Shown piece by piece: positions 15,823 to 50,983 of a DNA stretch of 64,000 bases. Source of the stretch: Moorella thermoacetica. GTDB taxonomy: Bacteria; Bacillota; DSM-521; Neomoorellales; Neomoorellaceae. Made by a program: the position numbers and the translations under genes. Where the stretch lies: NCBI RefSeq assembly GCF_001267405.1, contig NZ_CP012369.1:1514001-1578000 (forward strand), written 5' to 3'. Position 1 is the first letter of the stretch; each line of letters opens with the position of its first letter. Under the pieces are notes generated by a model. The model did not search any database. It saw nothing but the letters and a program-made list of their open reading frames with translations, and was not told where the DNA came from.

Positions 15823-16056
15823 TTACTCGTCTTCAGTTATCCCCCGGCCCTTCAAACCGTACATGGTTGTGCTGCCGGTGGAGAAATAGATGAGTTTCTC
15901 TTCATTGACCAGCTCGGTCGCGGCTTTCTTAATCTCCCGTGCCTTGGCATCGGGTATTTTGGCCTGGACAGCCTTCTCCAGATCTTTGAAGTAAAACTTG
16001 CTCTTCTTGCTGTTGGCGGCAAAATCCAGGATTGCTGCTTTGATATCTTCCATCAT
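15823..16056 (-). CDS. dsrD: DsrD, dissimilatory sulfite reductase accessory activator
   Basis: The 77-residue protein (MMEDIKAAILDF...) has the size and winged-helix-like helical pattern of DsrD, including the GSTTMYGLKG C-terminal strand. DsrD is found next to dsrAB in sulfate/sulfite reducers and is reported to stimulate DsrAB activity; it is generally absent from sulfur oxidisers. It lies 28 bases after the dsrB stop with an AGGGGG ribosome site, so it is clearly in the dsrABD operon. Its presence argues for a reductive pathway. Confidence 0.85.
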   Translation of the reverse strand: MMEDIKAAILDFAANSKKSKFYFKDLEKAVQAKIPDAKAREIKKAATELVNEEKLIYFSTGSTTMYGLKGRGITEDE

Positions 16057-16084
16057 AATTGTTACCCCCTTATCTCAGGCAGGT

Positions 16085-17272: not shown

Positions 17273-17284
17273 ATATATAACCCC

Positions 17285-18703: not shown

Positions 18704-18851
18704 TAGCAATACCCCCTTGATATGTTGAGTATAAGGCCAACCCCAAAATCAACTTTAATGTACAGCCGCCCCTTCGCCTCCTTTACCAGGGGATGGGTTA
18801 TTGCAAAGCCTCTGGTTGCCAGGGCACTGGAAACCTAGCAGGGTAATTTAC

Positions 18852-18902
18852 GTTAAGTTTATATTTGTGAAAGCTCTTTTTAGAACTCAGGTTAAACTTA
18901 AC
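18852..18902. promoter_or_regulatory. Spaced 10-bp inverted repeat before dsrA
   Basis: GTTAAGTTTA (18852-18861) and its exact reverse complement TAAACTTAAC (18893-18902) are 41 bases apart start to start, about four helical turns, in the gap between dsrM and dsrA. A TTGACA box sits just upstream on the minus strand (near 18922-18927). This could be a looping or cooperative operator; the protein is unknown. Confidence 0.4.
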
Positions 18903-18982
18903 ACCTCCTTCTCCCTGGTGTCAAGTCGTTTTTTATATACAGTGAAAATGTTATTATAAATCTCGAACGATCCGTGATATAC

Positions 18983-19975
18983 CTATTCTTTCTCTAACGG
19001 CAAACCGGCGAGCTTCATCTTGTCCCGGAACTCATCCTCGTATTCGGCATAGGTGTGGACCGGGACCGGATAATTCCACGGGTTGATGTGCCGGTAAGCC
19101 CGGCTGTTATTGGCCAGGTTGCGGGTCGGGCTGAGAAAGACGCCGCCCATATGCATAAGCTTGCTGAAGGGGAAATAGGCCCCCAGGACACTGGCTAGGA
19201 AGAGGTGGATATAAAACAGCAACCCCGCCCCTGCCGGCACGCTGGGTTTCAAAGTAACTAACCCCATGGTCAGTTCCTTCACCGCAGTAACGTCCACCCG
19301 GTAAAAGTAGCGCATTAATATCCCCGAAAATGCCAGGCCGAAGATTAACATGAGAGGGAAATAGTCGGCCGGCAGGGAGATATAACGTACCTGGGGGATA
19401 AAAACCCGCCGTAGGAAGAGATAGGTAACGGCTACCAGGATACCGATATCCGTCAAGTAGAGGGCCCGGACACCTACCCGTAAAAAACCATCCAGACTCT
19501 CCAGGAAGGGTACGAAACCGGGAACCGGTTCGGTGAAAAACCGCAGGTGCCTAAAAAAAATGATGAAAAAGGACCAGTGAAAAACCAGGGCCGCCAGCCA
19601 GAGCCATTTTTCCCAGTGGTAGGTGAGTTTGGGCCCTTCGTGCAGCTCAAACTTGGTATTGCGGAAAAGGGAACGGAAGAAAAGGATTTCCAGGGCCATC
19701 CTGCCGACAACGCCTGCCGCAGTGGCCGGGTTATCGAAGGTGCTGGCTTTAATCCAGGGCAGGGATTTCTGCTGCCCGGCCGTTGTCGGAATATGAAAGG
19801 GTACCGGCACCCGGGCCCACTTGATGACGCGATAAATGATCCCCAATAAAAAAGTAGCAATGGCCAGGTAGGGGACTACCACCCCGAAGAGAAAATACAG
19901 GTGGAAAACCCCTGCACCCAGGATAACGATAAAAAGGAGCGCGGCAATAACTAGCAAAGAAATGGTAATGCCCAT
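18983..19975 (-). CDS. dsrM: DsrM, haem b membrane subunit of DsrMKJOP
   Basis: The 330-residue protein has an N-terminal hydrophobic pair of helices and a nitrate-reductase-gamma-like cytochrome b core with paired His residues (for example LVFHWSFFIIFFRHLRFF and FYIHLFLASVLGAYFPFSKLMHMGG). DsrM oxidises menaquinol in the membrane and passes electrons to DsrK. It is the last gene of dsrKJOPM and lies 48 bases after dsrP. Confidence 0.88.
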   Translation of the reverse strand: MGITISLLVIAALLFIVILGAGVFHLYFLFGVVVPYLAIATFLLGIIYRVIKWARVPVPFHIPTTAGQQKSLPWIKASTFDNPATAAGVVGRMALEILFFRSLFRNTKFELHEGPKLTYHWEKWLWLAALVFHWSFFIIFFRHLRFFTEPVPGFVPFLESLDGFLRVGVRALYLTDIGILVAVTYLFLRRVFIPQVRYISLPADYFPLMLIFGLAFSGILMRYFYRVDVTAVKELTMGLVTLKPSVPAGAGLLFYIHLFLASVLGAYFPFSKLMHMGGVFLSPTRNLANNSRAYRHINPWNYPVPVHTYAEYEDEFRDKMKLAGLPLEKE

Positions 19976-20023
19976 TTACCGATCCCTCGTTTTGTGTAAT
20001 GCTCCCGATGATATCGGTTGCCC

Positions 20024-21181
20024 TTAAAGCAAATCTTCTTTAACCGCAATAGCAATTTTATAAAGAAAAGTCAGGATGAGGGCCCCGACGGCCCAGATAC
20101 CCAGGGTGATCAACATCTCCAGGGGAGTAGGGCTGTATTCCGTCACCCGGTTGAAGGCGTTGGGAATAAAGCCGCCGATTACCAAACCAATACCCTTTTC
20201 CAACCACATGGAGATAAATACCGCGCCGCAGGCGGCTATCAGGGTAGCCTCCCTGTTCCGGGTGCGGGGATTGATTAGCAAAACAAGGGCTATTACAGCC
20301 AGGACGGCAAACAGCCACATCAAAGGAACTAATTTAGCATGGCCATCCAGGCCGGCAAAGAGATAGATAAGGCTATCCATACCATGGGCCGGAACCTGGC
20401 TATAAAAGGCAGTGAAGAATTCCAGGCCCACAAAGAAGACGCTGATAATGGTGGCATAGGTAACGATGGCTGCCAGCTTGTCGATAGCCTCACGGCCGGG
20501 GTCAAACTTGCTGACCTTCCTGATAATGAAGCACAGGACAATCAGCAGGGCCGGACCCGAGGCAAAGGCCGAGGCCAGGAAGCGGGCGGCCATAATGGCT
20601 GTCAGCCAGTAATGGCGCCCCGGCAGGCCGGCGTAAAGAAAAGCCGTAACCGTATGGATGCTGATGGCCCAGGGGATGGATATATAGATCAAAATCTTAA
20701 CCCATTTTGGCGGGGCTACCGTCTTATATTCCGCTTCCAGCATGGTCCAGCCGATGACAATATTGAGAAGGAGGTAACCAGTTAACACAACCATATCCCA
20801 GAAGAGGATGGAGTTGGGGGTCGGGTAGAGGATCATGTTCAGCAGGCGCATGGGTTTCCCAAGGTCGACGAAAACAAAGAGTAAGCACATGATGATGGCG
20901 GCCACCGCCAGGAACTCCCCCAGGATAGTAATACGCCCAAAGGCTTTGACATTATGAAGATAGTAGGGCAGCACCAGCATTACTGCCGAAGCGGCCACCC
21001 CTACCAGGAAGGTTAGCTGGCCAATATACAGGCCCCAGGAAACGTCCCGGCTCATACCGGTAACTGTCAGGCCCCGGTTGAACTGGACCAGGTAACAGGC
21101 GAACCCTATGCCGGCCAGGACTAGCAGGAATACTACCCAGCTCCAGTACCTTTTGCTGCCGTTAAAAGCCCTGGCAATCAT
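20024..21181 (-). CDS. dsrP: DsrP, NrfD/PsrC-type membrane subunit
   Basis: The 385-residue protein has about ten transmembrane helices and the NrfD/PsrC fold features (N-terminal YWSWVVFLLVLAGIGF helix, central EFFTAFYSQVP). These subunits exchange electrons between the quinone pool and periplasmic iron-sulfur or haem proteins, here DsrO and DsrJ. It starts 23 bases after the dsrO stop. Confidence 0.87.
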   Translation of the reverse strand: MIARAFNGSKRYWSWVVFLLVLAGIGFACYLVQFNRGLTVTGMSRDVSWGLYIGQLTFLVGVAASAVMLVLPYYLHNVKAFGRITILGEFLAVAAIIMCLLFVFVDLGKPMRLLNMILYPTPNSILFWDMVVLTGYLLLNIVIGWTMLEAEYKTVAPPKWVKILIYISIPWAISIHTVTAFLYAGLPGRHYWLTAIMAARFLASAFASGPALLIVLCFIIRKVSKFDPGREAIDKLAAIVTYATIISVFFVGLEFFTAFYSQVPAHGMDSLIYLFAGLDGHAKLVPLMWLFAVLAVIALVLLINPRTRNREATLIAACGAVFISMWLEKGIGLVIGGFIPNAFNRVTEYSPTPLEMLITLGIWAVGALILTFLYKIAIAVKEDLL

Positions 21182-21204
21182 TTCTCCCCCTCCCTCGCAA
21201 ATGA

Positions 21205-21981
21205 CTAGACTATATAGTAAATACTGGGATGGGTGCCCAGTTCGGGTTTACGCTGGATGGTATACCGGTTTTTCAGAAGCTGTCTTGCCTCCGAACTGGG
21301 ATCTTCCAGATCGCCAAAGGTTATGGCCTTTGCCGGGCAGACCTCGACGCAGGCCGGCGGCAACCCGGTATCAATCCGCTCGACACAGAGGGTACACTTT
21401 TCGACTACGCCCTTTTCCCGGGTGGGATAGGCAGGATTCAATTCCTTAATATAGGGCCTGGGGTCCCGGAAATTGAAACTCCTGGCCCCGTATGGGCAGG
21501 CGGCCATACAATAACGGCAACCGATACAGCGATGATAATCAATCATAACAATACCATCCTGGCGTTTAAAGGTTGCCCTGGTGGGGCAGACCCGCACGCA
21601 TGGCGGTTTGTCACAGTGGTTGCAGAGAACTATAAAGGGGTTATTCTTGATGTCCTCTGCCATCAACTCGTGTTGCTGGTCGGGGAAGGCATCCCCGTAG
21701 GGTTCCGTCCAGATCCACTTTATCTCTTCTTTCTTGTTACCGATATCAGGAATGTTGTGCTCCCGCCTGCAGGTATCGAAACACCTGCGGCAACCTGCCT
21801 GATATCGGGGCCAGCACTTCTGCATATCGATGACCAGGCCCCACCTTTTACCGGCCATGGCCTTCGGATTAACCAGGTGTTCCGGATTGTTGGCCGCGAA
21901 CCCCTTAACCGCCGGCAGGATGGCGAGCCCCAGGGCCCAGGCGCCACCCAGTTTTAAGAAGTTCCTCCTGCTAGTTTCCAT
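21205..21981 (-). CDS. dsrO: DsrO, periplasmic iron-sulfur subunit with Tat signal
   Basis: The 258-residue protein begins with a twin-arginine signal (SRRNFLK, residues 4-10, then a hydrophobic stretch). It has several four-cysteine ferredoxin motifs: CNHCDKPPCVRVCP, CIGCRYCMAACPYG and CTLCVERI...CVEVCP. It is the exported [4Fe-4S] subunit of DsrMKJOP. It overlaps the end of dsrJ by one base. Confidence 0.9.
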   Translation of the reverse strand: METSRRNFLKLGGAWALGLAILPAVKGFAANNPEHLVNPKAMAGKRWGLVIDMQKCWPRYQAGCRRCFDTCRREHNIPDIGNKKEEIKWIWTEPYGDAFPDQQHELMAEDIKNNPFIVLCNHCDKPPCVRVCPTRATFKRQDGIVMIDYHRCIGCRYCMAACPYGARSFNFRDPRPYIKELNPAYPTREKGVVEKCTLCVERIDTGLPPACVEVCPAKAITFGDLEDPSSEARQLLKNRYTIQRKPELGTHPSIYYIV

Positions 21982-22385
21982 TACTTATTCTCCTTTGGCT
22001 CGATATGACAGGACCAGCAGTCCGGCTCTACCCCGGCATAAGTATGGCACTGGTCACAAAACTCGGCCTTATTGCTATGACACTGGAAACAGGTATTTTC
22101 CAGGCTCATGGTATACTGTTTCCCATCGCTGGCGACATAGATCTCCTTGCCGTCCCTGACCACCTGGGTCCGCCAATCATTCAACAACTGCATATGGTAA
22201 GCGCGCATATACTGGGTAGCCTCGATACACTGCTTTGCGGGTAACTGGCGGATAGCTGGGGTATCCAGGTTTGGTGCCGGCGCCGGGGCGGCCCGGCCGG
22301 CATTGGACCAAAAGGGGAAGGTCATCAAACCCACAAAGATCACCAGGCCGGTTATGATATAACGGGCATCACGATACATCGCCAT
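21981..22385 (-). CDS. dsrJ: DsrJ, triheme cytochrome c
   Basis: The 134-residue protein has one N-terminal membrane anchor (residues about 9-27) and three CxxCH haem c sites: CFQCH, CDQCH and CWSCH in the last 40 residues. This matches DsrJ, the periplasmic cytochrome of DsrMKJOP. It overlaps the end of dsrK by 17 bases and dsrO by one base, so the genes are tightly coupled. Confidence 0.9.
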   Translation of the reverse strand: MAMYRDARYIITGLVIFVGLMTFPFWSNAGRAAPAPAPNLDTPAIRQLPAKQCIEATQYMRAYHMQLLNDWRTQVVRDGKEIYVASDGKQYTMSLENTCFQCHSNKAEFCDQCHTYAGVEPDCWSCHIEPKENK

Positions 22386-23994
22386 CTACCGCCCCTTCTT
22401 TGCCGGGCAAGGGTTCACCCCGCAGGTTAGTCGTTCTCTCTTTTTCACCCTTCATTACCAGGGCATTGCCCACCAGCTCATGGACGCCGGTGACTCCAAC
22501 CCCGGGTACCCAGTACTCCATCAAGGCCGGGAAGACGGCCCGGTCCACGGCACAGATGCAGGCCAGCATATTAACGCCGTATTTTTCGTGAACATACTTT
22601 ACTGCATTGGCCCGGGGCAGGCCGCCCCGCATCCGCATCTCCATATATTCATCAGCGTTAAGGCCGGCACCGCTGCCACAGCAAAAAGTCTTTTCCCTGA
22701 TGGTGTTCTCGGGCATCTCGAAGAAATTATTGCAGACATGCTTGATGATGTAACGCGGTTCCTCAAAAAGCCCCATGGATCGCGCCGGGTTGCAGGAGTC
22801 ATGGAAGGTAACCCGCAGGTTATCGTTGCGGCTGGGGTCCAGTTTTAGCTTATTGTGCTTGATCAAGTCCGCCGTAAATTCGGTGATATGGACCATCTTG
22901 GTTGATTTGGCGTTCTCAAACCTCGTGCCGGTGATGGGGGAAACGGGCACTTCCAGGAAATCGGCCGGGCCGTTCATGGTATCCATATACTGGTTAATGA
23001 CCCGCCACATGTGGCCGCACTCGCCCCCAAGGATCCACTTCACCCCCAGGCGTTTGGCCTCGGCGTACATCTTGGCGTTGAGCCTCTTCATCATTTCGTG
23101 GGAGGTGAACATACCAAAGTTGCCGCCCTCGGAAGCGTAGGTACTCCAGGTGTAATCCAGGCCGATCTCGTGGAAGAGCATAAGATAGCCCATGAGGGTG
23201 TAGGTCCCGGGGTCAGCGAAAACGTCGCCGGAAGGGGCGATAAAGAGCACCTCCGCCCCCTTGCGGTTGAAGGTAGGTTCCACCCTGATGCCGGTTATGT
23301 TTTCGATTTCGTCGACACAGAACTCCACCATATCCTTGAAGGCGTGGGGTTCGATGCCGACGTGGTTCCCGGTGCGGTAGCAGTTGGCCACCGGAGAAGC
23401 AATCCAGTCGATATTGCACCCGACCAGGTTGAGGAGTTCCCGGCCGATCATGGTGATTTCCGCCGTATCAATGCCGTAGGGGCAGAAGAGGGAGCAGCGG
23501 CGGCACTCGGTGCACTGAAAAAAGTAGTAGAACCATTCCTTCAGGACATCGACCGTTAAATCCCTGGCGCCGACGAGTCTTCCCAGGAGCTTACCGGCGG
23601 TAGTAAAGTCGCGACGGTATACCGAGCGCAGGAGCTCGGCCCGCAGGACAGGCATATTCTTGGGATCGCCGGTGCCGATGAAGAAATGGCATTTATCGGC
23701 ACAGGCGCCACAGCGGACGCAGATATCCATGAAAACCTGCAGCGAGCGGAAGCGTCCCAGGCGTTCCCGCAGACCTTCCAGGATAATCTCCTGCCAGTTT
23801 TCCGGTAGTTTCCAATCCTCGTCTTCCGGCGACCATTCCCTGGGATTGGGCAGGCCGACGACTTCCAGGCTCTTGGGTTTAGCGGCGTATAGGTAGTTGC
23901 CCCGCCGGAATTGCACCGGAGTATCCATCCACCCCGTCCGGGGAGGCCGGTAATTTATCTTTACTAATTCCTCAGGTTTAGGAATAGCTGCCAT
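22369..23994 (-). CDS. dsrK: DsrK, HdrD-like catalytic iron-sulfur subunit
   Basis: The 541-residue protein has two ferredoxin motifs (CVRCGACADKC near residue 92 and CTECRRCSLFCP near 163) and the CCG-type cysteines of HdrD-like proteins (GGECGHMW, HDSCNPAR, CCGSGAG). DsrK takes electrons from DsrM and is thought to reduce the DsrC trisulfide or disulfide on the cytoplasmic side. Start ATG 23994 sits two codons after a GTG that overlaps the previous stop. Confidence 0.9.
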   Translation of the reverse strand: MAAIPKPEELVKINYRPPRTGWMDTPVQFRRGNYLYAAKPKSLEVVGLPNPREWSPEDEDWKLPENWQEIILEGLRERLGRFRSLQVFMDICVRCGACADKCHFFIGTGDPKNMPVLRAELLRSVYRRDFTTAGKLLGRLVGARDLTVDVLKEWFYYFFQCTECRRCSLFCPYGIDTAEITMIGRELLNLVGCNIDWIASPVANCYRTGNHVGIEPHAFKDMVEFCVDEIENITGIRVEPTFNRKGAEVLFIAPSGDVFADPGTYTLMGYLMLFHEIGLDYTWSTYASEGGNFGMFTSHEMMKRLNAKMYAEAKRLGVKWILGGECGHMWRVINQYMDTMNGPADFLEVPVSPITGTRFENAKSTKMVHITEFTADLIKHNKLKLDPSRNDNLRVTFHDSCNPARSMGLFEEPRYIIKHVCNNFFEMPENTIREKTFCCGSGAGLNADEYMEMRMRGGLPRANAVKYVHEKYGVNMLACICAVDRAVFPALMEYWVPGVGVTGVHELVGNALVMKGEKERTTNLRGEPLPGKEGAVDGDVS

Positions 23995-23996
23995 TT

Positions 23997-24515
23997 TCAC
24001 ACCTTCTCAAGGAGATTGGCTTTTTGCAGTAATCTGGCGATCCGGTTTTTTACTTCTTGAACCCGGATCTCATAAAGCTTCTCCCGGCAGGCCATATAGA
24101 TGTCAAAGGCGGCTAGGGCCAGCCGGTCAACCCGGGAGGCAAAGAGGCGTATCTCTTCCGGGTGGATTCCGGCCGCCCTGATTTCGCCTGCCAGCTCCTC
24201 GCCGATGATTTTCTTTATGTGCAAAATACCGCCGATAGCCCGGGAAGGGGGAAAATCCTGGACCGCCTGAATACGGAGCAGGCTGTCCAGGTACCTCGAG
24301 GCACTGCCGGCTTCTCCTCCCTCCAGGAGGATATCAAACAAGCCCGTAACGGCCTCCTGGATGGTATGGCCCACCGGATTAGCAAACTGGTCCTTTTCCC
24401 GCAGTAAAAAGCGGGCCGTTTCCGGGGGATACTCCTCCGCCAGGAGCTGAAACCACCTGTTTACCACGGCGGTCTTTTTATTCGCCAAAAACTCCTCCAA
24501 TTTCACGCCGACCAC
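23997..24515 (-). CDS. RsbRD N-terminal-domain protein, first gene of the dsrKJOPM operon
   Basis: The 172-residue all-helical protein resembles the RsbRD/RsbR co-antagonist N-terminal domain (WFQLLAEEYPPETARFL, then NPVGHTIQEAVTGLFDILLEGG). Small proteins of this type are often found directly before dsrMKJOP in sulfite/sulfate reducers. It ends at the dsrK start with no gap. It lacks a STAS domain. A sensory or assembly role is possible; no function is established. Confidence 0.7.
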   Translation of the reverse strand: MVGVKLEEFLANKKTAVVNRWFQLLAEEYPPETARFLLREKDQFANPVGHTIQEAVTGLFDILLEGGEAGSASRYLDSLLRIQAVQDFPPSRAIGGILHIKKIIGEELAGEIRAAGIHPEEIRLFASRVDRLALAAFDIYMACREKLYEIRVQEVKNRIARLLQKANLLEKV

Positions 24516-30032: not shown

Positions 30033-31278
30033 TTAAACGACCGAATTAACTTCCCTTATCTCAAGCCCCAGCTTCCGGGCCTCTGCAATAATTTTTTTGA
30101 TCCGAAACCTTTCTTGCTTTTGTTTGGCTTTCTCAAATGAAGTCTCGTCGTAGTCTGTACCGTTTTTTAGTAAGTTGTAAATGATCACCAGGAGCTTTCT
30201 GGCTAGAGCGATAAGGGCTTTCTTGGCCCCGCGGCGTTGCTTAACCTTCCAGTACCAGGACGATAAATAGCTGTTGCGTACTCGGGTGATGCACCAAGCA
30301 ACTTCGCAGAGGATTCGCTTTAGATAGGTGTTACCGTGGGTGGTGCGAGTGGACTTTTTTTCCTGCACTTTCATTATTGCCGGGACTTAAGCCCGCCCAG
30401 GAACAGATATGTTCCGCAGTTTTAAAGCGGCTCATATCAATGCCGATTTCCGCCAGAATAGCGGCGGCAGCGGTTTTGTCAATCCCCGGGATGCCGTCTA
30501 GTTGCTCCAGTTGTCTTTGGTATTGGCCCAATTTTTCCTCCAGCTTTTGCTCTACCTGGTGAAGATGCTTGTAGTGCTGATCCAGCCAGCCCAGCAAAAG
30601 CTTGAGGAACTCCCTTTGGTGAACATCCATTTTGCCATTGACAGCCTGCTTGATTTCCTGGAGCTTGCACTTGGCACGACCCTTTACTAAAGTCTCTACT
30701 TCCCGGGCGGATATCTTCCCATGACGGCAAAGGTGATCCATAATCGCCCGGCCCGATACCCCGAAGATATCGGTGAGGAAAGTGGAGAGCTTGAAACCGC
30801 AGCTTTGTAAGTGCTTTTCGATGCGGTTCTTTTGCGACGCAATCTCTTCGATAATACTTTTGCGGTACCGGGTTAGATTACGGAGTTCCCGGATAGGTTT
30901 GGAGGGAATAAAACTTCCTTCCAACAATCCGGCGCGCAAGAGGGTGGCTATCCATTCGGCGTCTTTCATGTCAGTCTTTTTACCGGGAACGTTTTTCATG
31001 TGCCGTGCGTTGGCAACAATCAAAACTATACTGCCGTCAAAGGCTTCTTCCAGGACGTTATATACAGGCTGCCAATAAACCCCGGTGCTTTCCATGGCCA
31101 CATGCCGGCAGTCCTCCGCTTCCAGCCAGGCTTTCAGTTCTTCCAGTCCGGCCAGAAGGGTGGAAAAGGTGCGGATAATTTTTGTCGGTTCCTCGCCAAC
31201 ATTGCCTTTTAATAGGCAGGCGACGACAGTTTCTTTGTGGACATCGAGACCGCAACAGATTTCCAGGATGTCTTGCAT
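30033..31278 (-). pseudogene. IS110-family DEDD transposase, split by frameshift (copy 1)
   Basis: The first frame (31278 to 30331) encodes an N-terminal RuvC-like DEDD domain starting near GLDVHKETVVACLL. It continues with the C-terminal Tnp_20 domain including PGIDKTAAAAILAEIG and SWAGLSPGN. At a run of seven A the frame ends; the rest (STRTTHGNTYLKRIL...) continues to 30033 in the +1 frame. Removing one A gives a 428-residue protein of normal IS110 size. Copy 2 has the same break, so either both descend from a broken copy or transcript slippage on the A-run is used. Confidence 0.82.
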
Positions 31279-35317: not shown

Positions 35318-36563
35318 ATGCAAGACATCCTGGAAATCTGTTGCGGTCTCGATGTCCACAAAGAAACTGTCGTCGCCTGCCTATTAAAAGGCAATGTTGG
35401 CGAGGAACCGACAAAAATTATCCGCACCTTTTCCACCCTTCTGGCCGGACTGGAAGAACTGAAAGCCTGGCTGGAAGCGGAGGACTGCCGGCATGTGGCC
35501 ATGGAAAGCACCGGGGTTTATTGGCAGCCTGTATATAACGTCCTGGAAGAAGCCTTTGACGGCAGTATAGTTTTGATTGTTGCCAACGCACGGCACATGA
35601 AAAACGTTCCCGGTAAAAAGACTGACATGAAAGACGCCGAATGGATAGCCACCCTCTTGCGCGCCGGATTGTTGGAAGGAAGTTTTATTCCCTCCAAACC
35701 TATCCGGGAACTCCGTAATCTAACCCGGTACCGCAAAAGTATTATCGAAGAGATTGCGTCGCAAAAGAACCGCATCGAAAAGCACTTACAAAGCTGCGGT
35801 TTCAAGCTCTCCACTTTCCTCACCGATATCTTCGGGGTATCGGGCCGGGCGATTATGGATCACCTTTGCCGTCATGGGAAGATATCCGCCCGGGAAGTAG
35901 AGACTTTAGTAAAGGGTCGTGCCAAGTGCAAGCTCCAGGAAATCAAGCAGGCTGTCAATGGCAAAATGGATGTTCACCAAAGGGAGTTCCTCAAGCTTTT
36001 GCTGGGCTGGCTGGATCAGCACTACAAGCATCTTCACCAGGTAGAGCAAAAGCTGGAGGAAAAATTGGGCCAATACCAAAGACAACTGGAGCAACTAGAC
36101 GGCATCCCGGGGATTGACAAAACCGCTGCCGCCGCTATTCTGGCGGAAATCGGCATTGATATGAGCCGCTTTAAAACTGCGGAACATATCTGTTCCTGGG
36201 CGGGCTTAAGTCCCGGCAATAATGAAAGTGCAGGAAAAAAAGTCCACTCGCACCACCCACGGTAACACCTATCTAAAGCGAATCCTCTGCGAAGTTGCTT
36301 GGTGCATCACCCGAGTACGCAACAGCTATTTATCGTCCTGGTACTGGAAGGTCAAGCAACGCCGCGGGGCCAAGAAAGCCCTTATCGCTCTAGCCAGAAA
36401 GCTCCTGGTGATCATTTACAACTTACTAAAAAACGGTACAGACTACGACGAGACTTCATTTGAGAAAGCCAAACAAAAGCAAGAAAGGTTTCGGATCAAA
36501 AAAATTATTGCAGAGGCCCGGAAGCTGGGGCTTGAGATAAGGGAAGTTAATTCGGTCGTTTAA
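35318..36563 (+). pseudogene. IS110-family DEDD transposase, split by frameshift (copy 2)
   Basis: Same two frames as copy 1: 35318-36265 (DEDD and start of Tnp_20) and 36222-36563 (rest of Tnp_20), joined by a +1 shift at GGAAAAAAAGTC near 36233-36244. ATG 35318 follows GGCAGGAGGAAG. Both copies share the break exactly, so the shift preceded the last duplication or is functional slippage. Confidence 0.82.
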
Positions 36564-42183: not shown

Positions 42184-43263
42184 TCATGTCAAGACAATTA
42201 CCCGGCCGGGGCCTTGTTCCACCTCGCCGACAACCCGGGCTGCCATTACCCCGCGCCGGTTCAGGTCGTCCATCAGGTCGTCGACCCGGTCCTGGGGTAT
42301 GGCGATCAACAGTCCCCCTGAAGTCTGGGGGTCATAGAGGACATCCCGGAGGTCCTCCGGTACGCCGGCTTCCATATCAACCCTGTCCTCGACATAATGG
42401 CGATTGTTATAGGCGCCGCCGGGTACCAGGCCCATGGCGGCAAATTCCCTCGCGCGGGGCAAGACCGGGATGGACCCGGCGTGGAAGACCAGGTTTACCC
42501 CGCTGCCGCTAGCCATTTCCAACCCATGGCCCAGGAGGCCGAAACCGGTTATATCAGTACAGGCATGGGCGCCGGCAGCGACCATGGCTGCAGCCGCTTC
42601 CCGGTTCAAGGTAGCCATCCAGCGGCTGACTTCCCCTTCCAGGTCCGGGGAGGCCATCTCGGCCTTTATCGCTGTAGTGATAATCCCCGTCCCCAGGGGT
42701 TTGGTCAGCACCAGTTTGTCTCCGGGGCGGGCGGCGCAGTTGGTAATTATCCGGTCAGGGTGGATAACCCCGGTTACAGCCAAGCCATACTTCGGCTCGT
42801 CGTCTTCAATGCTGTGCCCGCCAACCAGAACCGCCCCGGCCTCCAGAATCTTATCAGCCCCGCCCCGCAGGATCTCCCCCAGGACGGCAGTATCTACTTT
42901 CTTGCTGGGGAAGGCCACCAGGTTCATGGCGGTCACCGGCCGCCCGCCCATGGCATACACGTCGCTCAAGGCGTTGGCGGCGGCAATCTGGCCGTAAATG
43001 TACGGATCATCAACAATGGGAGTGAAAAAGTCTACTGTCTGGATGAGGGCCAGATCGTCGGTCAGGCGATAAACCCCGGCATCATCAACGCTGTTCATAC
43101 CTACCAGGAGGTTGGGATCAGCCATCGCCGGCAGGTACTGTAATACCTGGTTAAGGGTCCCCGGACCCATCTTAGCCGCTCACCCGGAACTGCAGGAAAG
43201 CTGGGTCAGCCGGGGATTTTCCAGCCTGGGGCCGAGGCCGCAGGCATTTTTGTCAGCTGCCAT
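42184..43263 (-). CDS. selD: Selenide, water dikinase, a selenoprotein (in-frame UGA)
   Basis: SelD makes selenophosphate from selenide and ATP for tRNA-Sec and selenoprotein synthesis. From ATG 43263 the frame runs 31 codons to KMGPG..., with TGA as codon 28 (43180-43182) in CSSG-U-AAK. This is the catalytic position that is Cys or Sec in SelD. Glycine-rich ATP-binding segments (GGHSIEDDEPKYG, TDITGFGLLGHG) are intact. A start after the TGA (ATG 43170) would lack the active site. The family commonly has Sec here. Ends in the gap before the redox protein gene. Confidence 0.88.
43155..43182 (-). promoter_or_regulatory. Candidate bacterial SECIS element of selD
   Basis: Eleven bases after the UGA, GGGTC-CGGG-GACCC forms a 5-bp stem with a 4-base loop having G in its second position. 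The loop starts 17 bases after the UGA, which fits the loose bacterial SECIS rules. Confidence 0.55.
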
Positions 43264-43360: not shown

Positions 43361-43586
43361 AAGACTTTTTCCGGATCAAAAACGAATAATAATCCTCCCG
43401 GGGTTCAATGGCTACCAGGGTGTGCCCGGCCTCCTGGCACCAGGCCGGGAGGTCGAATTCGGCCGCCAGGTCATCGGTCCAGACCTCCAGCAGTTGCCCG
43501 GCCTTCAATTTCTTCATTTTTTGGGCTGTAGCCATCAGGGGTCCCGAACAGGTCATCCCCCGGCAATCCAGGATAATCCCGTCCAC
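43359..43586 (-). CDS. TusA/YedF-family sulfurtransferase-like protein
   Basis: The 75-residue protein has the TusA start (ILDCRGMTCSGPLMATAQKM) with the conserved Cys of the CPxP-type loop present as CSGP, then the second helix and strand of the fold. TusA proteins carry persulfide sulfur; YedF-type members often lie next to selD. Here the gene lies between the triple-HTH gene (1-base overlap) and selD. It could serve sulfur transfer for the Dsr2 system or selenium handling. Confidence 0.75.
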   Translation of the reverse strand: MDGIILDCRGMTCSGPLMATAQKMKKLKAGQLLEVWTDDLAAEFDLPAWCQEAGHTLVAIEPREDYYSFLIRKKS

Positions 43587-44488
43587 TACACTCCATCCTC
43601 CTGGTGCTTCTTGTTTAGTACCCCGATAAGGTTTGCTACCAGGTTCCTCTCTTCTTCCTTAGAGCGTCTAATGAAATCCTTTATTTCCTGGTACTCTTCT
43701 TCATCGTCGTCATTTAGCGGGCGGCGGGCCTCATTCATTATACTTACAAAATCTAGTAACCCCTTGATCTCCCGGTCGCTCCAGCCGGCCAGGTCGCGCA
43801 CGACCTGCTGGAGCAAAGGCCGCCGCAGGGCTTCCCGGATATCAGCCTCCAGGCGATAATCCAGGTAGAGATCTTCTTCGTCATCCTCCATAAGGAAGTA
43901 ACAAGTAGAAACCCCCAGGGCCTCGGCCAGGCTACTCAGGGTGGACAGGGAAGGCTGGATGCGATCTGTCTCAATCTGGCCGATGAGGCTGTGGGAAATT
44001 CCGACCTGCTGGGCCAGCTCCTTCTGGGTCAGGCCGATCTTTTCCCGCAGGCGCTTCAGCTTGGCTCCCAGGGAATCCTGCTGGCCGGAGCGCAACAGGG
44101 AACTGGTTGAAACCTCCAGGACGGCGGCCAGTTTTTCCAGGGTCTTAAGGGAGGCCGTCGAGCGCGAGCGTTCGATCTCACTGATATGGGCCAGGGAAAC
44201 CCCAGAACGGCGGCTCAATTCACTCAGGGTAATGCCCTTTTGCTCCCGCAAACGCCGTAGCCTGGCGCCTACGCTGTTGTCGTTCTTGTTATCATTTTCC
44301 TCTTGAAAATAGCTAACATCTACCCCCAGGATGGCAGCCACCTCCTTCAGGGTGGCCAGGGACAGCCTCCTGGTGCCCTGCTCTACTTCCACCATACAGG
44401 CGGGGGCGATATCCAGGCGATCGGCCAGTTCCTCCAGGGGTATTCCCCTATCTTCCCTTAGCTTTTTTAGTTTCTCACCTATGGTCAT
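43586..44488 (-). CDS. Transcriptional regulator with three tandem XRE helix-turn-helix domains
   Basis: The 300-residue protein holds three successive HTH_3/XRE domains: residues about 5-60 (LKKLREDRGIPLEELADRLD), 73-128 (LRRLREQKGITLSELSRRSG) and 138-193 (LKRLREKIGLTQKELAQQVG). They are followed by an acidic linker (MEDDEEDLYLD) and a helical C-terminus. Most XRE regulators have one such domain. It sits inside the dsr2 gene run, between cbiA/dsrN-like and tusA-like genes, so it likely controls that locus. The effector is unknown. Confidence 0.82.
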   Translation of the reverse strand: MTIGEKLKKLREDRGIPLEELADRLDIAPACMVEVEQGTRRLSLATLKEVAAILGVDVSYFQEENDNKNDNSVGARLRRLREQKGITLSELSRRSGVSLAHISEIERSRSTASLKTLEKLAAVLEVSTSSLLRSGQQDSLGAKLKRLREKIGLTQKELAQQVGISHSLIGQIETDRIQPSLSTLSSLAEALGVSTCYFLMEDDEEDLYLDYRLEADIREALRRPLLQQVVRDLAGWSDREIKGLLDFVSIMNEARRPLNDDDEEEYQEIKDFIRRSKEEERNLVANLIGVLNKKHQEDGV

Positions 44489-44529: not shown

Positions 44530-45882
44530 TTAGTTCCCCGCCGCCAGGGCCACCAGGTTGGGCGCCCACTCGGGGCTGGACGGGGCGTATAAATGATTAT
44601 ACCCTGCCAGGACCTGCCGGTAAAGAATACCGTCCACCTGGCCGTCGATGCCATAGCCCCGGCATACCCGGTAAAGGAAGTTTACCTCCCGGCGTTCCAG
44701 GTTTATTACCCGCGAGTGGTGGAACTCATGACCCCGGATAGTACTGCCCCGGGTCAGGAAGGGGCTATCGCCCTCGACGTACATGGCTGTATAGCCGTGG
44801 CCCTGGGGGCAGGAAGACATTGTCACGTCCAATGGCAGGGCACCGCACATTTCATACCAGCGTCCCCGGTAATTGAGCCTCCGGGCCAGGTACATCAGGC
44901 CGCCGCACTCGGCATAGACCGGCATGCCGGCAGCCACGGCTTCCTTAACCTCCCGCCGCAAAGACCTGTTGGCTTCCAGTTGAGGGGCAAAAACCTCGGG
45001 GAAACCGCCGCCGAGATAGAGCCCCTGGACGTCCGGTAATTTCTCATCTGCCAGGCTGTCAATCTTTACCAGTTCGGCCCCGGCGGCAGCCAGGGCCTCC
45101 AGGTTTTCCGGGTAATAAAAAGTAAAAACGCGATCCTGGAAGACGCCCAGGCGTACCCGGCGTGGGGCCGGCCGGTTTTCCTGTTCCGGTGCCGTAAGCT
45201 CCGGGGCCCGGCTGGCAATGGCCAGCAGGGCGTCCAGGTCGACTGCCGCTGCGATGGCTTTACCCGTAGCCTCCAGGGCTACATGGAGGCGTTCGTTTTC
45301 TGCCGCCGGGATCAGGCCCAGGTGGCGGTCGGGTATACCGAAGTCTTTCTTTTTGGGCAGGGCCCCCAGCACCGGCAGGCCGGTATAGTGTTCAATGGAG
45401 CGGCGCAGGATATCCTCGTGGCGGGCGCGGGCCACCTGGTTCAGGATTACCCCGGCGATGCTTACCCCGGGGTCAAAATTCTGGAAGCCTCGCACCAGGG
45501 CGGCAGCGCTCCTGGTCATACGGGTAGCGTCAATTACCAGCACCACCGGAGCCATGAGGGCCCTGGCTACGGCAGCAGTACTATCACTGCCCTCCAGATC
45601 CAGGCCGTCAAAGAGCCCCATGGCCCCTTCCACCAAACCCACATCGGCTCCCCGGCAACTGGCGGCAAAGTGCAGCCGGAGCTTTTCCGGTGATAAGAAA
45701 TAGAGGTCAAGATTGCGGCAGGGGCGACCGGCCACCAGGCTCAACCACCCCGGGTCGATGAAATCAGGCCCCTTTTTGAAGGGCTGGATCACCAGACCCT
45801 TTTGCCTCAAAGCGGCTATTAAGCCTATAGTAATGGTTGTCTTGCCCGAACGGCCGTGGGGCGCCGCAATTACCAGGCGCAT
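44530..45882 (-). CDS. CbiA/CobB-type a,c-diamide synthase, DsrN-like
   Basis: The 450-residue protein has a P-loop at the N-terminus (HGRSGKTTITIGL), a dethiobiotin-synthetase-like ATPase half and a C-terminal class I glutamine amidotransferase half with the nucleophile Cys in YAECGGLMYL (near residue 325). CbiA amidates cobyrinate; the homologue DsrN amidates sirohaem for dissimilatory sulfite reductases. The position 11 bases after the second DsrB-like gene, away from any cobalamin gene, favours the DsrN role. Confidence 0.82.
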   Translation of the reverse strand: MRLVIAAPHGRSGKTTITIGLIAALRQKGLVIQPFKKGPDFIDPGWLSLVAGRPCRNLDLYFLSPEKLRLHFAASCRGADVGLVEGAMGLFDGLDLEGSDSTAAVARALMAPVVLVIDATRMTRSAAALVRGFQNFDPGVSIAGVILNQVARARHEDILRRSIEHYTGLPVLGALPKKKDFGIPDRHLGLIPAAENERLHVALEATGKAIAAAVDLDALLAIASRAPELTAPEQENRPAPRRVRLGVFQDRVFTFYYPENLEALAAAGAELVKIDSLADEKLPDVQGLYLGGGFPEVFAPQLEANRSLRREVKEAVAAGMPVYAECGGLMYLARRLNYRGRWYEMCGALPLDVTMSSCPQGHGYTAMYVEGDSPFLTRGSTIRGHEFHHSRVINLERREVNFLYRVCRGYGIDGQVDGILYRQVLAGYNHLYAPSSPEWAPNLVALAAGN

Positions 45883-45893
45883 GGGTCCACCTC

Positions 45894-46961
45894 CTACCGC
45901 AGGTGCAGGTCCCGGCGTAGGCCAGCAAAGGGGAAATGGTTATCAAAAATGTCTGCTACCGGGCTAGCCCCTACGGCCTTGAGAAAAGCCGGCCAGCCAA
46001 GGCGTTCCAGGAAGCCGGCGAGCCTTTCCCCGCGTTTCCCCCTGTCCCGCCAGCAGGCGATAATCCGTTGCACCCGTTCGCAAATGGCCGCGTAGTCCAG
46101 GGGCCTGGCCGGTACCCGGGAAAACACCACGGCTGCCATTTCTGGGCCCCGCCGGTTATTACCGCCGTGGCCGCCGACGGCGATGGCGACAAAGCGCTCC
46201 GGGCCGGGCTTTATCCCTTCAGGCGCCACCTGGATACAGGAGGTGCAGCGGATGCAACGTTCGGCGTTAATAACCACTGTCGTCCCGCCCTCGACCTGCC
46301 GGGGACGAATGGCCCCTACCGGGCAACCGGAGATCAGGTGGCCGAAGTCGATATTGGCTGCCATCAGGCCGGCGTCGTCCACCCTGGGTACGGTGGCAAA
46401 ATATCCGGATATGCCGATGTCCGCCTCGACACCGCCGCCACACTGGTTGGGGCAGCCGGTTACCGATATCTTCAGCGGTGCCGGCAGGTCCTGGTGGAAA
46501 AACGCCGGGTACAAATAGTCCGCCAGGGTTTTGGCGATGCTGGGCGCATCGACGGCGGCATTCTGGCAATGGATGAAGGAGGTACAGCACTTAATCTGGT
46601 GCAGACTATTACCAGTACCCCCGGCCGGAAAACCGCTCGCCGCCAGCTCGGCCAGGAAGTTATCCAGGAGTTCCGGCCGGACGCCGACAAACTCGAAACC
46701 CTGGCGGCTGGTGCGCCGGCCAGTCAGGGCATAAACCCGGATCCAGCGGGCCAGCTGACGCAGGGTAGCCGCGCTCAACAGGCCGTTGGGTGGCAGTAAA
46801 ATGCGGACCGTCAGGATGGCGGTACCATCGCCGGCCAGATGACGGATCACTCCTGGCCGGACCATTTCATGCCTGACCCACTTTCCCCGGCAGGCGAGGA
46901 GTTCTGGTGGTATCTGCTGGCGGTAGTCGGGCATAATCCCGGCCGGCAGATCATTTTTCAT
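45894..46961 (-). CDS. Second, divergent DsrB-like sulfite reductase subunit
   Basis: The 355-residue protein aligns with DsrB over its length (GGTGNSLHQIKCCTSFIHC, then SVTGCPNQC and the ferredoxin motif CIRCTSCIQVAPEG). Its cluster cysteines are Cys126-x5-Cys132 and Cys170-x3-Cys174, the pattern of DsrA, whereas the canonical DsrB here (16085-17272) has Thr at the first position and uses a CC pair. ATG 46961 follows GGAGTG. A 127-base gap separates it from the dsrA-like gene, unlike the 12 bases in dsrAB. Confidence 0.85.
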   Translation of the reverse strand: MKNDLPAGIMPDYRQQIPPELLACRGKWVRHEMVRPGVIRHLAGDGTAILTVRILLPPNGLLSAATLRQLARWIRVYALTGRRTSRQGFEFVGVRPELLDNFLAELAASGFPAGGTGNSLHQIKCCTSFIHCQNAAVDAPSIAKTLADYLYPAFFHQDLPAPLKISVTGCPNQCGGGVEADIGISGYFATVPRVDDAGLMAANIDFGHLISGCPVGAIRPRQVEGGTTVVINAERCIRCTSCIQVAPEGIKPGPERFVAIAVGGHGGNNRRGPEMAAVVFSRVPARPLDYAAICERVQRIIACWRDRGKRGERLAGFLERLGWPAFLKAVGASPVADIFDNHFPFAGLRRDLHLR

Positions 46962-47091
46962 CACCGCGGCTCACTCCTAAAAAAGCCCTCTACCAGAACT
47001 GGCGCTTTTTGCATGGATAGAGATATGTCCCATGCCCTCAGAAATTATACGCCGACAAGACTACGGTGCGGTTCGAAACGTTCCGGAGTCG

Positions 47092-48216
47092 CTAGTACAC
47101 ATTCCTCTTGGGGCTCAAGAGGATCTGGGGCTGGGCCTCGAGGCCGAGTTCCCGTAAAATCTTCAGGGGGCCAACGCGGGCGATAAAGTCCCCCACCCGC
47201 TCCTTTTTCTTAGCGTTATCCGCCCAGAACTCCAGGAAAGCGCCGAAGATATCGCCGACGGCGGTGTAATCGTCATCGGCAACGGGGATGAAGGGCACCA
47301 GGACAAAACCTACCATGGGGCCCTGGGGGCCCCGGTGACCGTATTTGCCCCCGGCAACCCAGGCGACCCCCCGCTCGCGGCCGGGACGGATGGCCGGGCA
47401 GTAGTTGATACAGGCCATGCAACGCCAGCAGCGTTCCTTGTCTACCTCCAAGGTATCCCCCACCAGGGTCAGGGCCCCTGCCGGGCAGGCGGCCAGGAGG
47501 CCGTTCAGGTCGCCGCCCTTCTCCCGCCAGGCGGCCAGCATCTCGCCGTCTACCATGGGCCAGTCCCGGTAAACGCCGATAAAGGAATGGTCCTTTTGCA
47601 TCATGGCCCGGATACAATCATTGGGACAACCGGCCACGGCGCTCTTAACCTTCTGGGGGTAGCCGGGATACTGCTGGTCGTCAATAAAGCGCTGCCCCAG
47701 GTAGGTGGCCAGGGCCGGAGCATCCACCAGGGCATGCTCGCAGCGTACCGGTCCGCAGCAGGCCGTCAGGCAACGTAGATCATCCCCCGTTGAACCCACA
47801 TCCAAACCCCCGCTGTTTAACTCCCGGACCAGGGGTAGCATCTGTTCGCGGCCGGTGTAGATCTCTATGGTGCCGCCGCTGGTCAGGTGAACCAGCCCCC
47901 GGCCGTAGGTCTCAGCACAATCGGCCAGTTTCTCCAGGGTTGCAGCCGCGAGCCATCCCCCCGCCGGCGCCAGGATGCGGAGATAGGACGATTCCTGAAT
48001 GATGTCCGGACGACGGCTGTTGCGCACAGCCACCCCGGCAGGCAGTTCCGGGACACTGATATAGCCGCCGTGGCCATAAGCGGATTCTCCCTCTGCCAGC
48101 CCTGCTTCATACATGGCCAGGGGGTAGTTGCTTTTTACCAGCTCCCGGACATGGCTGGGTGACAGTCCTACCATTAGCTGCCGACAAAGAGGAAAATCCC
48201 GGAATGCTTCCTTCAA
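47092..48216 (-). CDS. Second, divergent DsrA-like sulfite reductase subunit
   Basis: The 374-residue protein has the sirohaem cluster ligands Cys153-x5-Cys159 (TACCGPVRCEHA) and Cys197-x3-Cys201 (GCPNDC), and a ferredoxin domain with CWRCMACINYCP. It is about 100 residues shorter than the canonical DsrA at 17285-18703, mainly at the N-terminus. TTG 48216 follows AAGGAG by nine bases, starting almost at the stop of the single-Cys DsrC paralogue. Predicted to reduce sulfite or a related oxyanion; the substrate is not proven. Confidence 0.85.
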   Translation of the reverse strand: MKEAFRDFPLCRQLMVGLSPSHVRELVKSNYPLAMYEAGLAEGESAYGHGGYISVPELPAGVAVRNSRRPDIIQESSYLRILAPAGGWLAAATLEKLADCAETYGRGLVHLTSGGTIEIYTGREQMLPLVRELNSGGLDVGSTGDDLRCLTACCGPVRCEHALVDAPALATYLGQRFIDDQQYPGYPQKVKSAVAGCPNDCIRAMMQKDHSFIGVYRDWPMVDGEMLAAWREKGGDLNGLLAACPAGALTLVGDTLEVDKERCWRCMACINYCPAIRPGRERGVAWVAGGKYGHRGPQGPMVGFVLVPFIPVADDDYTAVGDIFGAFLEFWADNAKKKERVGDFIARVGPLKILRELGLEAQPQILLSPKRNVY

Positions 48217-48544: not shown

Positions 48545-48862
48545 TTACACGCAGCCGGTGGGTTTGGGTAGACCGGCGACTTTACAGGCCCCTTTAGCCG
48601 GACCGCTGGGGAAGAGGTCGTAGATCTGCTTGAGGCTGAAGCCGGTTTCCTTGCAGACCTTGCGGATCATGGGAGCGATGCCGAACTGGAGGTAGTACTG
48701 GCGCAGGTAATTGACCAGTTTCCAGTGGTCCTCGGTCATTTCGGTTACCCCTTCCTGCTCCGCCAGGGCTCTGGCGACATCCTCGTTCCACTTGCTGGGG
48801 TCGGCAATGAACCCGTCTTCATCAACTTCAAGCTGCATACCGGCGAGATTTACCGTCGGCAT
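48545..48862 (-). CDS. dsrC: DsrC, sulfite reductase co-substrate protein
   Basis: The 105-residue protein is a full DsrC: N-terminal strands, WNEDVARALAEQEG, the conserved TEDHWKLVNYLRQYY and the flexible C-terminal arm with both redox cysteines (Cys93 in GACKVAG and Cys104 in PTGCV). DsrC receives sulfite sulfur from DsrAB as a trisulfide, which DsrMK reduces. ATG 48862 lies eight bases after AGGAGG. This is the only complete dsrC in the window, so it may serve both Dsr systems. Confidence 0.92.
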   Translation of the reverse strand: MPTVNLAGMQLEVDEDGFIADPSKWNEDVARALAEQEGVTEMTEDHWKLVNYLRQYYLQFGIAPMIRKVCKETGFSLKQIYDLFPSGPAKGACKVAGLPKPTGCV

Positions 48863-48941
48863 GTTAAACACCTCCTGCCAGATTTTATTATACCTGTACC
48901 CTCGATTAAAGGCTACAGGCTAAAAACACCATGATTAACAA

Positions 48942-50321
48942 TTAATTGTACACCAGGGCATTAGCCACCAGCTCACTGACACCCATGAAACGTACCGGCA
49001 GCTTATAGTAGTTGATAATCTCCCGGAACTGGCCCTTACAATTGGAGCAGGCCAGGGCTACAATGCTGGCGCCGGTGGCTTTTAGCTGCTCGGCTTTGAG
49101 CTTACCGTAGGTTTCCATGCGGAATTTAAGGAAGTCGCCCTTATCCATAATGGCAAAACCGCTGCCACCGCCGCAGCAAATACTCATTTCCCGGTTGGGC
49201 GTCATTTCGCGAAAATCAGTGCAGCAGGCTTTGAGGATGCGCCGCGGCTCCTCATAGAGCCCTCCCAGGCGGCCCAGCTTGCAGGAATCATGGTAGGTCA
49301 CAGGTTCAGGGTTCTTCTGGGGGTCGACCTTAATCCGCCCTTCCCGGATCCATTGATCCTCCAGTTCCAGGATGCTCTTGACCTCAAAAGGCCTTTCTTC
49401 CGGGGGGACGAGGCGCAAGATCAGGTACTTCAGCGCCTCGAAGGCATGACCGCACTCGCCTACGACGAAAGTCTTAATCCCTAACTTTTTGGCAGTTTCG
49501 ATATGGGCCCTGGCAACACTGGCGAACTCGGTATCGCTGTAAAAGACGCCGTAATTGACGGCATCGTTGAGGCCCGTTTCCGGGGAATTGAGGGTCCAGT
49601 CGACACCGGCGGCGTTCATGACTTCGGCGGCGCCCATTACCGTCTCGGCAAAGGCCAGGTAGTCGCCGGCGTTATGCATGAGGAGGTACTCGGCGCCCTG
49701 CTTATCAACCGGTATTTTAATTTTATATCCCCGTGTATCCTCAATCTCTTCCTCCAGGAACTCAATCATGTCAAAAAAGGCGTTGGCCGGCATACCGGTG
49801 GCGTTACCCAGCCGGACCTGTTTCCGGGTGCCGTTTTTCTTCAGCTCGTCGGGGGCGATATCGATGGCGTCGAAGATTTTCCGTGCTTCCCGGGCAATCA
49901 AGCCGTTATCAATGGCTACCGGGCAAACATAGGCACAGCGGCGGCAAATGGTACACCGGTAAATATTCTCGGCCATGGCATTGAGTTTATCTTCCGTCAG
50001 GTCTTCCGCTCCCACCAGGCCCGGAAAAAACCTTCCTGCCAGGGTAAAATACCGTTTATAAACCTTACGCAGCATGTCGGAACGGTAGACCGGATGGTAG
50101 ATGTCTTTGCGGCCGCTGGCCAGGTAGACCGGGCAGACCTCGGCGCAGGTACCGCACTTCATGCAGGTATCCAGGGATAGGGTATAGGGGAGCCAAAAGG
50201 TCCAGTTATCCCGCTGCCGGAGGGATTTCCCCATGGCCTGGAGGAATTTTTCCACCCGTGGCGCGTCTGGTTTCAGGGTCTCATCTGAGAGCACCCGGTA
50301 ATCGTCAAAGACTTTACGCAT
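48942..50321 (-). CDS. DsrK-like (HdrD-type) iron-sulfur protein of the second locus
   Basis: The 459-residue protein has two ferredoxin motifs (CMKCGTCAEVCP near residue 53 and CTICRRCAYVCP near 122) and CCG-domain cysteines (GECGHAF, HDSCKLG, CCGGGSG). It is shorter than the DsrK of the first cluster. It overlaps the end of the DsrM-like gene by one to three bases (TAATG). It would pass quinol electrons from the DsrM-like protein to DsrC. No J, O or P genes are nearby. Confidence 0.87.
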   Translation of the reverse strand: MRKVFDDYRVLSDETLKPDAPRVEKFLQAMGKSLRQRDNWTFWLPYTLSLDTCMKCGTCAEVCPVYLASGRKDIYHPVYRSDMLRKVYKRYFTLAGRFFPGLVGAEDLTEDKLNAMAENIYRCTICRRCAYVCPVAIDNGLIAREARKIFDAIDIAPDELKKNGTRKQVRLGNATGMPANAFFDMIEFLEEEIEDTRGYKIKIPVDKQGAEYLLMHNAGDYLAFAETVMGAAEVMNAAGVDWTLNSPETGLNDAVNYGVFYSDTEFASVARAHIETAKKLGIKTFVVGECGHAFEALKYLILRLVPPEERPFEVKSILELEDQWIREGRIKVDPQKNPEPVTYHDSCKLGRLGGLYEEPRRILKACCTDFREMTPNREMSICCGGGSGFAIMDKGDFLKFRMETYGKLKAEQLKATGASIVALACSNCKGQFREIINYYKLPVRFMGVSELVANALVYN

Positions 50322-50983
50322 TATTCCATTTCACCCCACTTGACCTTGTGGTAGGTAAAATACTTGACGGCGAAATGCGCCATTCGGGTAAAGGGCAGGT
50401 AAACCAAGAAAAGCTCAAATATTAAAAGAAAGACCAGGTAAGTTCCCGGCAGGGGCAAGTGGGGCCGCAGGGTTAACAAGCTGATTAAATAGATCCTGAA
50501 ACCGGGATCCCCCAAGGCGCCGCTGGTGAGGGCGCTGAAGGCCATCATGAAGACAAAGAGCAGGTTTAAGTACTCTACCGGCGCAGATATCTGGCGCAGA
50601 TCGGCAGTAAATAAGCGCAGGAAAAACAGGGCGCAGGAGCCCACCACCGCCAGGATGCCCCCGGCGATACCCAGGTACAGGGCGAAGGGAGCACCCACCA
50701 GTAAGAAGAATAGCCAGAAAACCACCAGGTAAATGCCGTAGTGCATAAGAAGGGAAGGTAGCCATAACTTGCGGTTATGGTTAAAAAGGCTGCGCAGGGT
50801 AAAGACCTCGGTCAACAGTTCGCCAAGCTGGCCCCCCAGGGTACGGGGATAGGGAAAGAGTTCCCAGTGGAGGTTGACAGGGGCCCTGAGCCAGTAAGTT
50901 ATTTTATAGACCAGCCCTACCACCAGCACGACTATAGACACATACGGCAGGATACCGCCGATAAATGACTGCCAGATATCCAT
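50321..50983 (-). CDS. DsrM-like cytochrome b of the second locus
   Basis: The 220-residue membrane protein has about five to six helices of the nitrate-reductase-gamma/DsrM type, with His residues in LMHYGIYLVVFWLFFLL and FTRMAHFAVKYFTYH. It lacks the about 100 extra residues of the DsrM at 18983-19975. It is first in the second Dsr gene run, 190 bases after the YeiH-like gene, from which a terminator separates it. Confidence 0.83.
   Translation of the reverse strand: MDIWQSFIGGILPYVSIVVLVVGLVYKITYWLRAPVNLHWELFPYPRTLGGQLGELLTEVFTLRSLFNHNRKLWLPSLLMHYGIYLVVFWLFFLLVGAPFALYLGIAGGILAVVGSCALFFLRLFTADLRQISAPVEYLNLLFVFMMAFSALTSGALGDPGFRIYLISLLTLRPHLPLPGTYLVFLLIFELFLVYLPFTRMAHFAVKYFTYHKVKWGEME

Follow-up and report, generated by a model that had tools for sequence, protein, structure and literature searches.

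The divergent DsrAB pair of Moorella thermoacetica, DsrA2B2, probably represents (we put this at about 60%) a sirohaem enzyme of the DsrAB type that branched off early and has a single working site in each heterodimer, an ancestral type of cluster ligation and a DsrC homologue of its own, DsrC2. This interpretation is carried by the cluster-ligand motif of DsrB2 and its conservation, by the tree position of the two subunits, by the pocket residues and by the co-occurrence of DsrC2, all of which were read from the sequences. The stretch of DNA that was analyzed, referred to here as the window, is 64,000 nucleotides long.

The second dsr cluster and the ligand motif of DsrB2

The features of the window needed for the argument are the following.

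16085-17272, minus strand: canonical dsrB, for comparison (Thr148, C191/C192)
17285-18709, minus strand: canonical dsrA, for comparison
43586-44488, minus strand: XRE-type regulator with three HTH repeats
44530-45882, minus strand: dsrN / CbiA-type amidase, 3' of dsrB2; predicted sirohaem amidation, role from PMC10504309
45894-46964, minus strand: dsrB2, divergent DsrB, 356 aa, GTG start; ATG at 46961
46584-46586, 46566-46568, 46452-46454 and 46440-46442, minus strand: ligand codons of dsrB2 for C127, C133, C171 and C175, respectively
47092-48216, minus strand: dsrA2, divergent DsrA, 374 aa; cluster ligands C153, C159, C197 and C201
48220-48474, minus strand: dsrC2, DsrC homologue with a single C-terminal Cys, 84 aa; end GLPMPKEC, Ser at the CysB position
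48545-48871, minus strand: dsrC, normal two-Cys form, ...ACKVAGLPKPTGCV
48942-50321, minus strand: DsrK2 (dsrK-like), upstream of dsrC; under the DsrK equivalog cut-off
50321-50983, minus strand: DsrM2 (dsrM-like membrane protein), 220 aa

The second cluster has the order YeiH-like protein, DsrM2, DsrK2, DsrC, DsrC2, DsrA2, DsrB2, DsrN, XRE regulator and SelD, and the canonical dsr genes (dsrD, dsrB and dsrA together with a DsrMKJOP-type set) are found at 15823-24000, in a host genome of 2.53 Mb that consists of a single contig. The two clusters are separated by about 29 kb here, compared to about 7 kb in several other Moorella genomes, and between them are two transposase genes that are identical and oppositely oriented (30331-31278, minus strand; 35318-36265, plus strand). 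The spacer between dsrA2 and dsrB2 measures 127 bp (46965-47091), and the regulator gene adjoining dsrN was kept in the examined neighbourhoods that reach that far (including L090 and L091). In the SelD gene (42184-43236, minus strand) an in-frame TGA is read through (SGUAAK), so that SelD is probably a selenoprotein with its true start upstream of the listed ORF. Dsr-LP/Fsr-C-like and AsrC-like sirohaem proteins (L005, L006) are also encoded in the same genome.

Numbered from the GTG start, the cluster ligands of DsrB2 are C127-x5-C133 and C171-x3-C175, i.e. a C-x5-C...C-x3-C set of the DsrA type, as had been noticed in a sequence-only reading of this DNA that counted from the ATG and listed the same residues as C126, C132, C170 and C174. 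That reading had also correctly assigned Thr148 and C191/C192 to the canonical DsrB of the window (16085-17272), in which the full arrangement is Thr148-x5-Cys154 and C191/C192-x3-C196. Relative to this protein, the Thr is replaced by Cys127 and the CC pair by Gly170-Cys171 in DsrB2, and the joint occurrence of the two replacements is compensatory, so that four Cys are retained. A Cys at the first position together with Gly-Cys was found in all 17 DsrB2 rows (16 genomes, one of them represented twice), whereas each of the 33 rows of canonical DsrB has Thr together with Cys-Cys, as do 14 further rows that come partly from the same genomes. Since the motif is fixed in the former and missing from all of the latter, it is not a product of chance. 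An extra Cys, C126 in the GTG numbering, is located beside C127, and because this neighbor varies (Gly in G053, L065), C127 is the constant residue and the ligand candidate. In three comparisons the dN/dS of dsrB2 amounted to 0.10-0.15, indicating purifying selection, which was likewise found for A2 and C2. DsrB2 does not carry the CXnCCX3C catalytic cluster motif of DsrB, and the catalytic site of DsrA2B2 has the C-x5-C...C-x3-C ligands of the Asr/Fsr type. In addition, DsrB from Hydrothermarchaeota has been reported to contain CX5CXnCX3C (PMC6759336), and the ancestral motif may therefore extend beyond the basal type I clade to which, as described below, DsrA2B2 belongs.

Against the DsrB equivalog TIGR02066, DsrB2 scored 241.5 bits and remained under the cut-off of 341.5; all DsrB2 sequences ranged between 181 and 250 bits, and the matches above the cut-off between 465 and 544 bits. 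The best fold match of the DsrB2 model, which is of moderate quality (mean pLDDT 73.5, with the least confidence in the cluster loops), was DsrB (Z 27), and this fold together with the grouping with DsrB in the tree (99/93; rival placements p 0.054-0.09) places DsrB2 in the DsrB lineage. A scan of genome contigs identified relatives only in Moorella, Thermanaeromonas and one Clostridia MAG, plasmid and viral-contig searches yielded no relative, and phage records provided nothing but a DsrA at 22% identity.

The catalytic pocket and its substrate

In the known DsrAB enzymes the DsrA site is inactive and has a structural role, whereas the catalytic site is the one that contains the DsrB cluster, CXnCCX3C (PMC10229431), which is the reverse of the earlier assumption that the beta site is the structural one. 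As the sirohaem is anchored mainly by one protomer and the cluster is held by its partner (PMC10229431), the catalytic site combines the DsrA pocket with the DsrB cluster, and the ligand change observed in DsrB2 consequently falls in the catalytic site. In MjFsr, sulfite is bound by R355, R423, K460 and K462, with R388 as an additional assimilatory trait (PMC10229431). DsrA2 retains the four sulfite-binding residues as R80, R148, K189 and K191 (8 of 8 sequences) and hence has the Arg/Lys set expected at the catalytic site of an active sulfite reductase. The position of Fsr R388 is occupied by S, T, A or N in DsrA2 and by Thr in canonical DsrA, and since the R388-type Arg is absent, the site of DsrA2B2 is a mosaic. 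A Cys, Cys149, directly follows the substrate-binding Arg148 (LRC/IRC) in 18 of 18 DsrA2 sequences and in none of 45 other DsrA.

We infer from these residues that the DsrA2 pocket would bind sirohaem and sulfite or a similar oxyanion, and that DsrB2 would supply the coupled [4Fe-4S] cluster, held by the ancestral C-x5-C...C-x3-C ligands. Electrons may reach this cluster via the ferredoxin-like inserts, and the reduced sulfur would be released in the form of sulfide or carried off bound to DsrC2 as an adduct. The enzyme would work alongside an ordinary DsrAB. Both DsrAB copies of M. thermoacetica have been detected in a proteome (PMC10504309), and a DsrB above the family cut-off is also present in 15 of the 16 DsrAB2 genomes, the exception being one that is 84% complete (G008). 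In Moorella and the DJKA97 MAG this companion DsrB belongs to the canonical long type; elsewhere in the order, and in family f35, it is of a shorter type encoded a few kb away. In G001, G016, G017, G018, G053 and G094, a third, shorter DsrAB with the canonical Thr/CC motif was found at a distance of a few kb from DsrAB2 (L021-L024, L085, L086).

The occurrence of DsrAB2 almost always as an extra copy alongside another DsrAB could also indicate that its substrate is not sulfite but selenite, nitrite, thiosulfate or another sulfur oxyanion. In most Moorellia loci the operon is followed on its 3' side by a gene for selenophosphate synthase; nitrite and selenite are reduced in vitro by Fsr, whose ligand set is the same (PMC10229431); and Moorella species are stated not to reduce sulfite (PMC7174415). 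However, all four sulfite-binding residues are retained, and in the f35 genomes selD was not found adjoining the DsrAB2 module. A different substrate is thus possible, if doubtful, and sulfite is preferred here.

Phylogenetic position and origin of the ligand set

The relationships were analyzed in a maximum-likelihood tree of 57 sequences, from which the trait columns were omitted and which was rooted on an outgroup of AsrC, Fsr and Dsr-LP; archaeal DsrB was represented by Archaeoglobus only, and basal type II DsrB was left out. DsrA divided into A2 and A1+A3 (support 100/99) and DsrB into B2 and B1+B3 (99/93), with each half itself supported at 100/99 or better. By the tree and the AU tests, DsrA2 is therefore sister to every other DsrA in the sample, and DsrB2 to every other DsrB. 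A grouping of B2 with B1, the bacterial reductive-type DsrB, was rejected (p 0.0005), as was a clade of DsrA2 and DsrB2 (p 5e-5). Placements of DsrB2 as sister to DsrA (p 0.09) or outside both subunits (p 0.054) were not firmly rejected, and the ligand set is ancestral in these trees as well. The C-x5-C motif is common to the outgroups, all DsrA and DsrB2, and a single change on the canonical DsrB stem suffices in the best tree. With the B2+B1 grouping rejected, the ligand set is most simply regarded as ancestral, and the T-x5-C and CC-x3-C set would have arisen later, on the stem of canonical DsrB.

The sister position, the adjoining dsrC and dsrN genes and the Moorella-type genome identify DsrA2B2 as a member of basal type I DsrAB, the Moorella second copy. 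The same clade is basal in published trees (PMC10504309, PMC12948486); a different early arrangement has been presented in PMC7174415. In the sequence-only reading the enzyme was thought to resemble the ancestral state before the subunits diverged. The ancestral nature of the ligand set agrees with the tree, but the timing does not, because DsrA2 groups with DsrA (100/99), DsrB2 groups with DsrB (99/93) and their union is rejected. Judged by sequence, DsrA2B2 branched off early, once the duplication had taken place, and has retained one ancestral feature.

Since just two positions must change, DsrB2 might alternatively have descended from a T/CC-type DsrB and regained DsrA-like ligands, for which the neighboring paralogue dsrA2 could have donated sequence. 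This reversion is decidedly unlikely, as the B2+B1 grouping was rejected with the trait columns omitted, the surroundings of the motif in DsrB2 are DsrB-like and not DsrA-like, and DsrB2 has further outgroup features (TSRQG). Gene conversion from dsrA2 was set aside for the same DsrB-like character of the motif-flanking residues.

The second site, DsrC2 and known relatives

At the second site, which involves the DsrA2 cluster, DsrB2 keeps the lining residues R54, R87 and K165, has His122 in place of R423 and a variable residue (P/Q/W/G/R) in place of K460 (Fsr numbering); canonical DsrB also lacks R423, and the B1 group also lacks K460. This residue pattern makes it likely that DsrA2B2 possesses a single functional-type site, at the usual position, and a second site that is as degenerate as in the known enzymes and would have stayed so. 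That both sirohaem-[4Fe-4S] sites are catalytically active, as had been proposed earlier from the full C-x5-C...C-x3-C set in both subunits and as Arg87 within a TSRQG motif similar to AsrC and Dsr-LP might suggest, is very improbable, because only the site of the DsrA2 pocket and DsrB2 cluster keeps the four sulfite-binding residues, DsrB2 lacks two of their equivalents much like canonical DsrB, and the cluster motif alone is insufficient, given that canonical DsrA has it at a structural site (PMC10229431).

A second Pfam DsrC match in the genome (61.9 bits, cut-off 24.9), DsrC2, is encoded between dsrC and dsrA2, its stop codon lying 3 bp ahead of the start of dsrA2; against TIGR03342 it scored 50.5 bits (cut-off 53.5). 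The Pfam match and the terminal Cys84 (CysA), found in 13 of 13 sequences, place DsrC2 in the DsrC family, in which it forms a group separate from ordinary DsrC (support 100/100). An internal Cys44 is invariant in the 13 sequences, 12 of which have Ser at the CysB position, with Cys only in G094. When 398 genomes from the phylum were searched, 13 were matched by the DsrAB2 model at a score of at least 455 bits, and the DsrC2 model matched exactly these 13 at at least 130 bits, the next best score being 63. Wherever the neighbourhood was assessable, dsrC2 was located adjacent or close to dsrA2B2; the two genomes from another family have the order A2-B2-N-XRE-C2, with the genes still together, and G129, from that same family and without DsrAB2, has ordinary DsrC only.

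On the basis of this gene linkage, DsrC2 would be a physical partner of DsrA2B2 to which sulfur is handed over. As the usual CysA-CysB trisulfide is impossible on a DsrC2 without CysB, its single C-terminal Cys would take the sirohaem sulfur as a persulfide-type adduct. It is conceivable, though rather unlikely, that DsrC2 and DsrA2B2 are a relic from a time before the CC arrangement of the cluster and the trisulfide cycle with two Cys, in which an enzyme with assimilatory-type ligation passes sulfur to a single-Cys carrier, with DsrA2 Cys149 possibly in the role of DsrC CysB. In that case the evolution of the CC motif in DsrB would have been coupled to that of the energy-conserving DsrC with its two Cys.

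The DsrAB trees by which sulfite respiration is dated are rooted by basal type I DsrAB, which was set aside in a 2026 paper for lack of functional evidence. Its catalytic site appears intact and ancestrally ligated, and it is accompanied by a DsrC of its own in which CysB is mostly missing. This provides a concrete, testable account of steps toward modern DsrAB and DsrC in Moorella species that are cultivable. The clade itself is already known (PMC10504309, PMC12948486), and DsrA2B2 shares with it the adjoining dsrC and dsrN and scores under the DsrA and DsrB equivalog cut-offs; in the searchable literature we found no earlier report of the C-x5-C...C-x3-C set in basal type I DsrB, of the one-site pocket pattern in basal type I DsrAB or of a DsrC2 beside dsrA2.

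Similar to canonical DsrAB (D. vulgaris 2V4J, A. fulgidus 3MM5), DsrA2B2 belongs to the two-subunit family, with a ferredoxin insert, catalytic-site residues in DsrA and a degenerate second site in DsrB. In contrast to the canonical enzymes, DsrB2 has C127 and Gly170 instead of Thr and Cys, DsrA2 lacks the conserved Thr133/136 and has the extra Cys149, and the second cluster lacks DsrD. With Fsr and the assimilatory sulfite reductases it shares an active-site cluster on C-x5-C...C-x3-C, but it differs from these enzymes in the absence of the Arg388-type residue from DsrA2, in its two different subunits and in the co-encoded DsrC-family proteins. Likewise, DsrC2 resembles DsrC and TusE as a DsrC-family protein with a C-terminal CysA, in which CysB is mostly absent as in TusE, whereas its length of 84 aa with a shortened N-terminus, the Cys as the very last residue, the invariant Cys44 and the strict linkage to DsrAB2 distinguish it from both.
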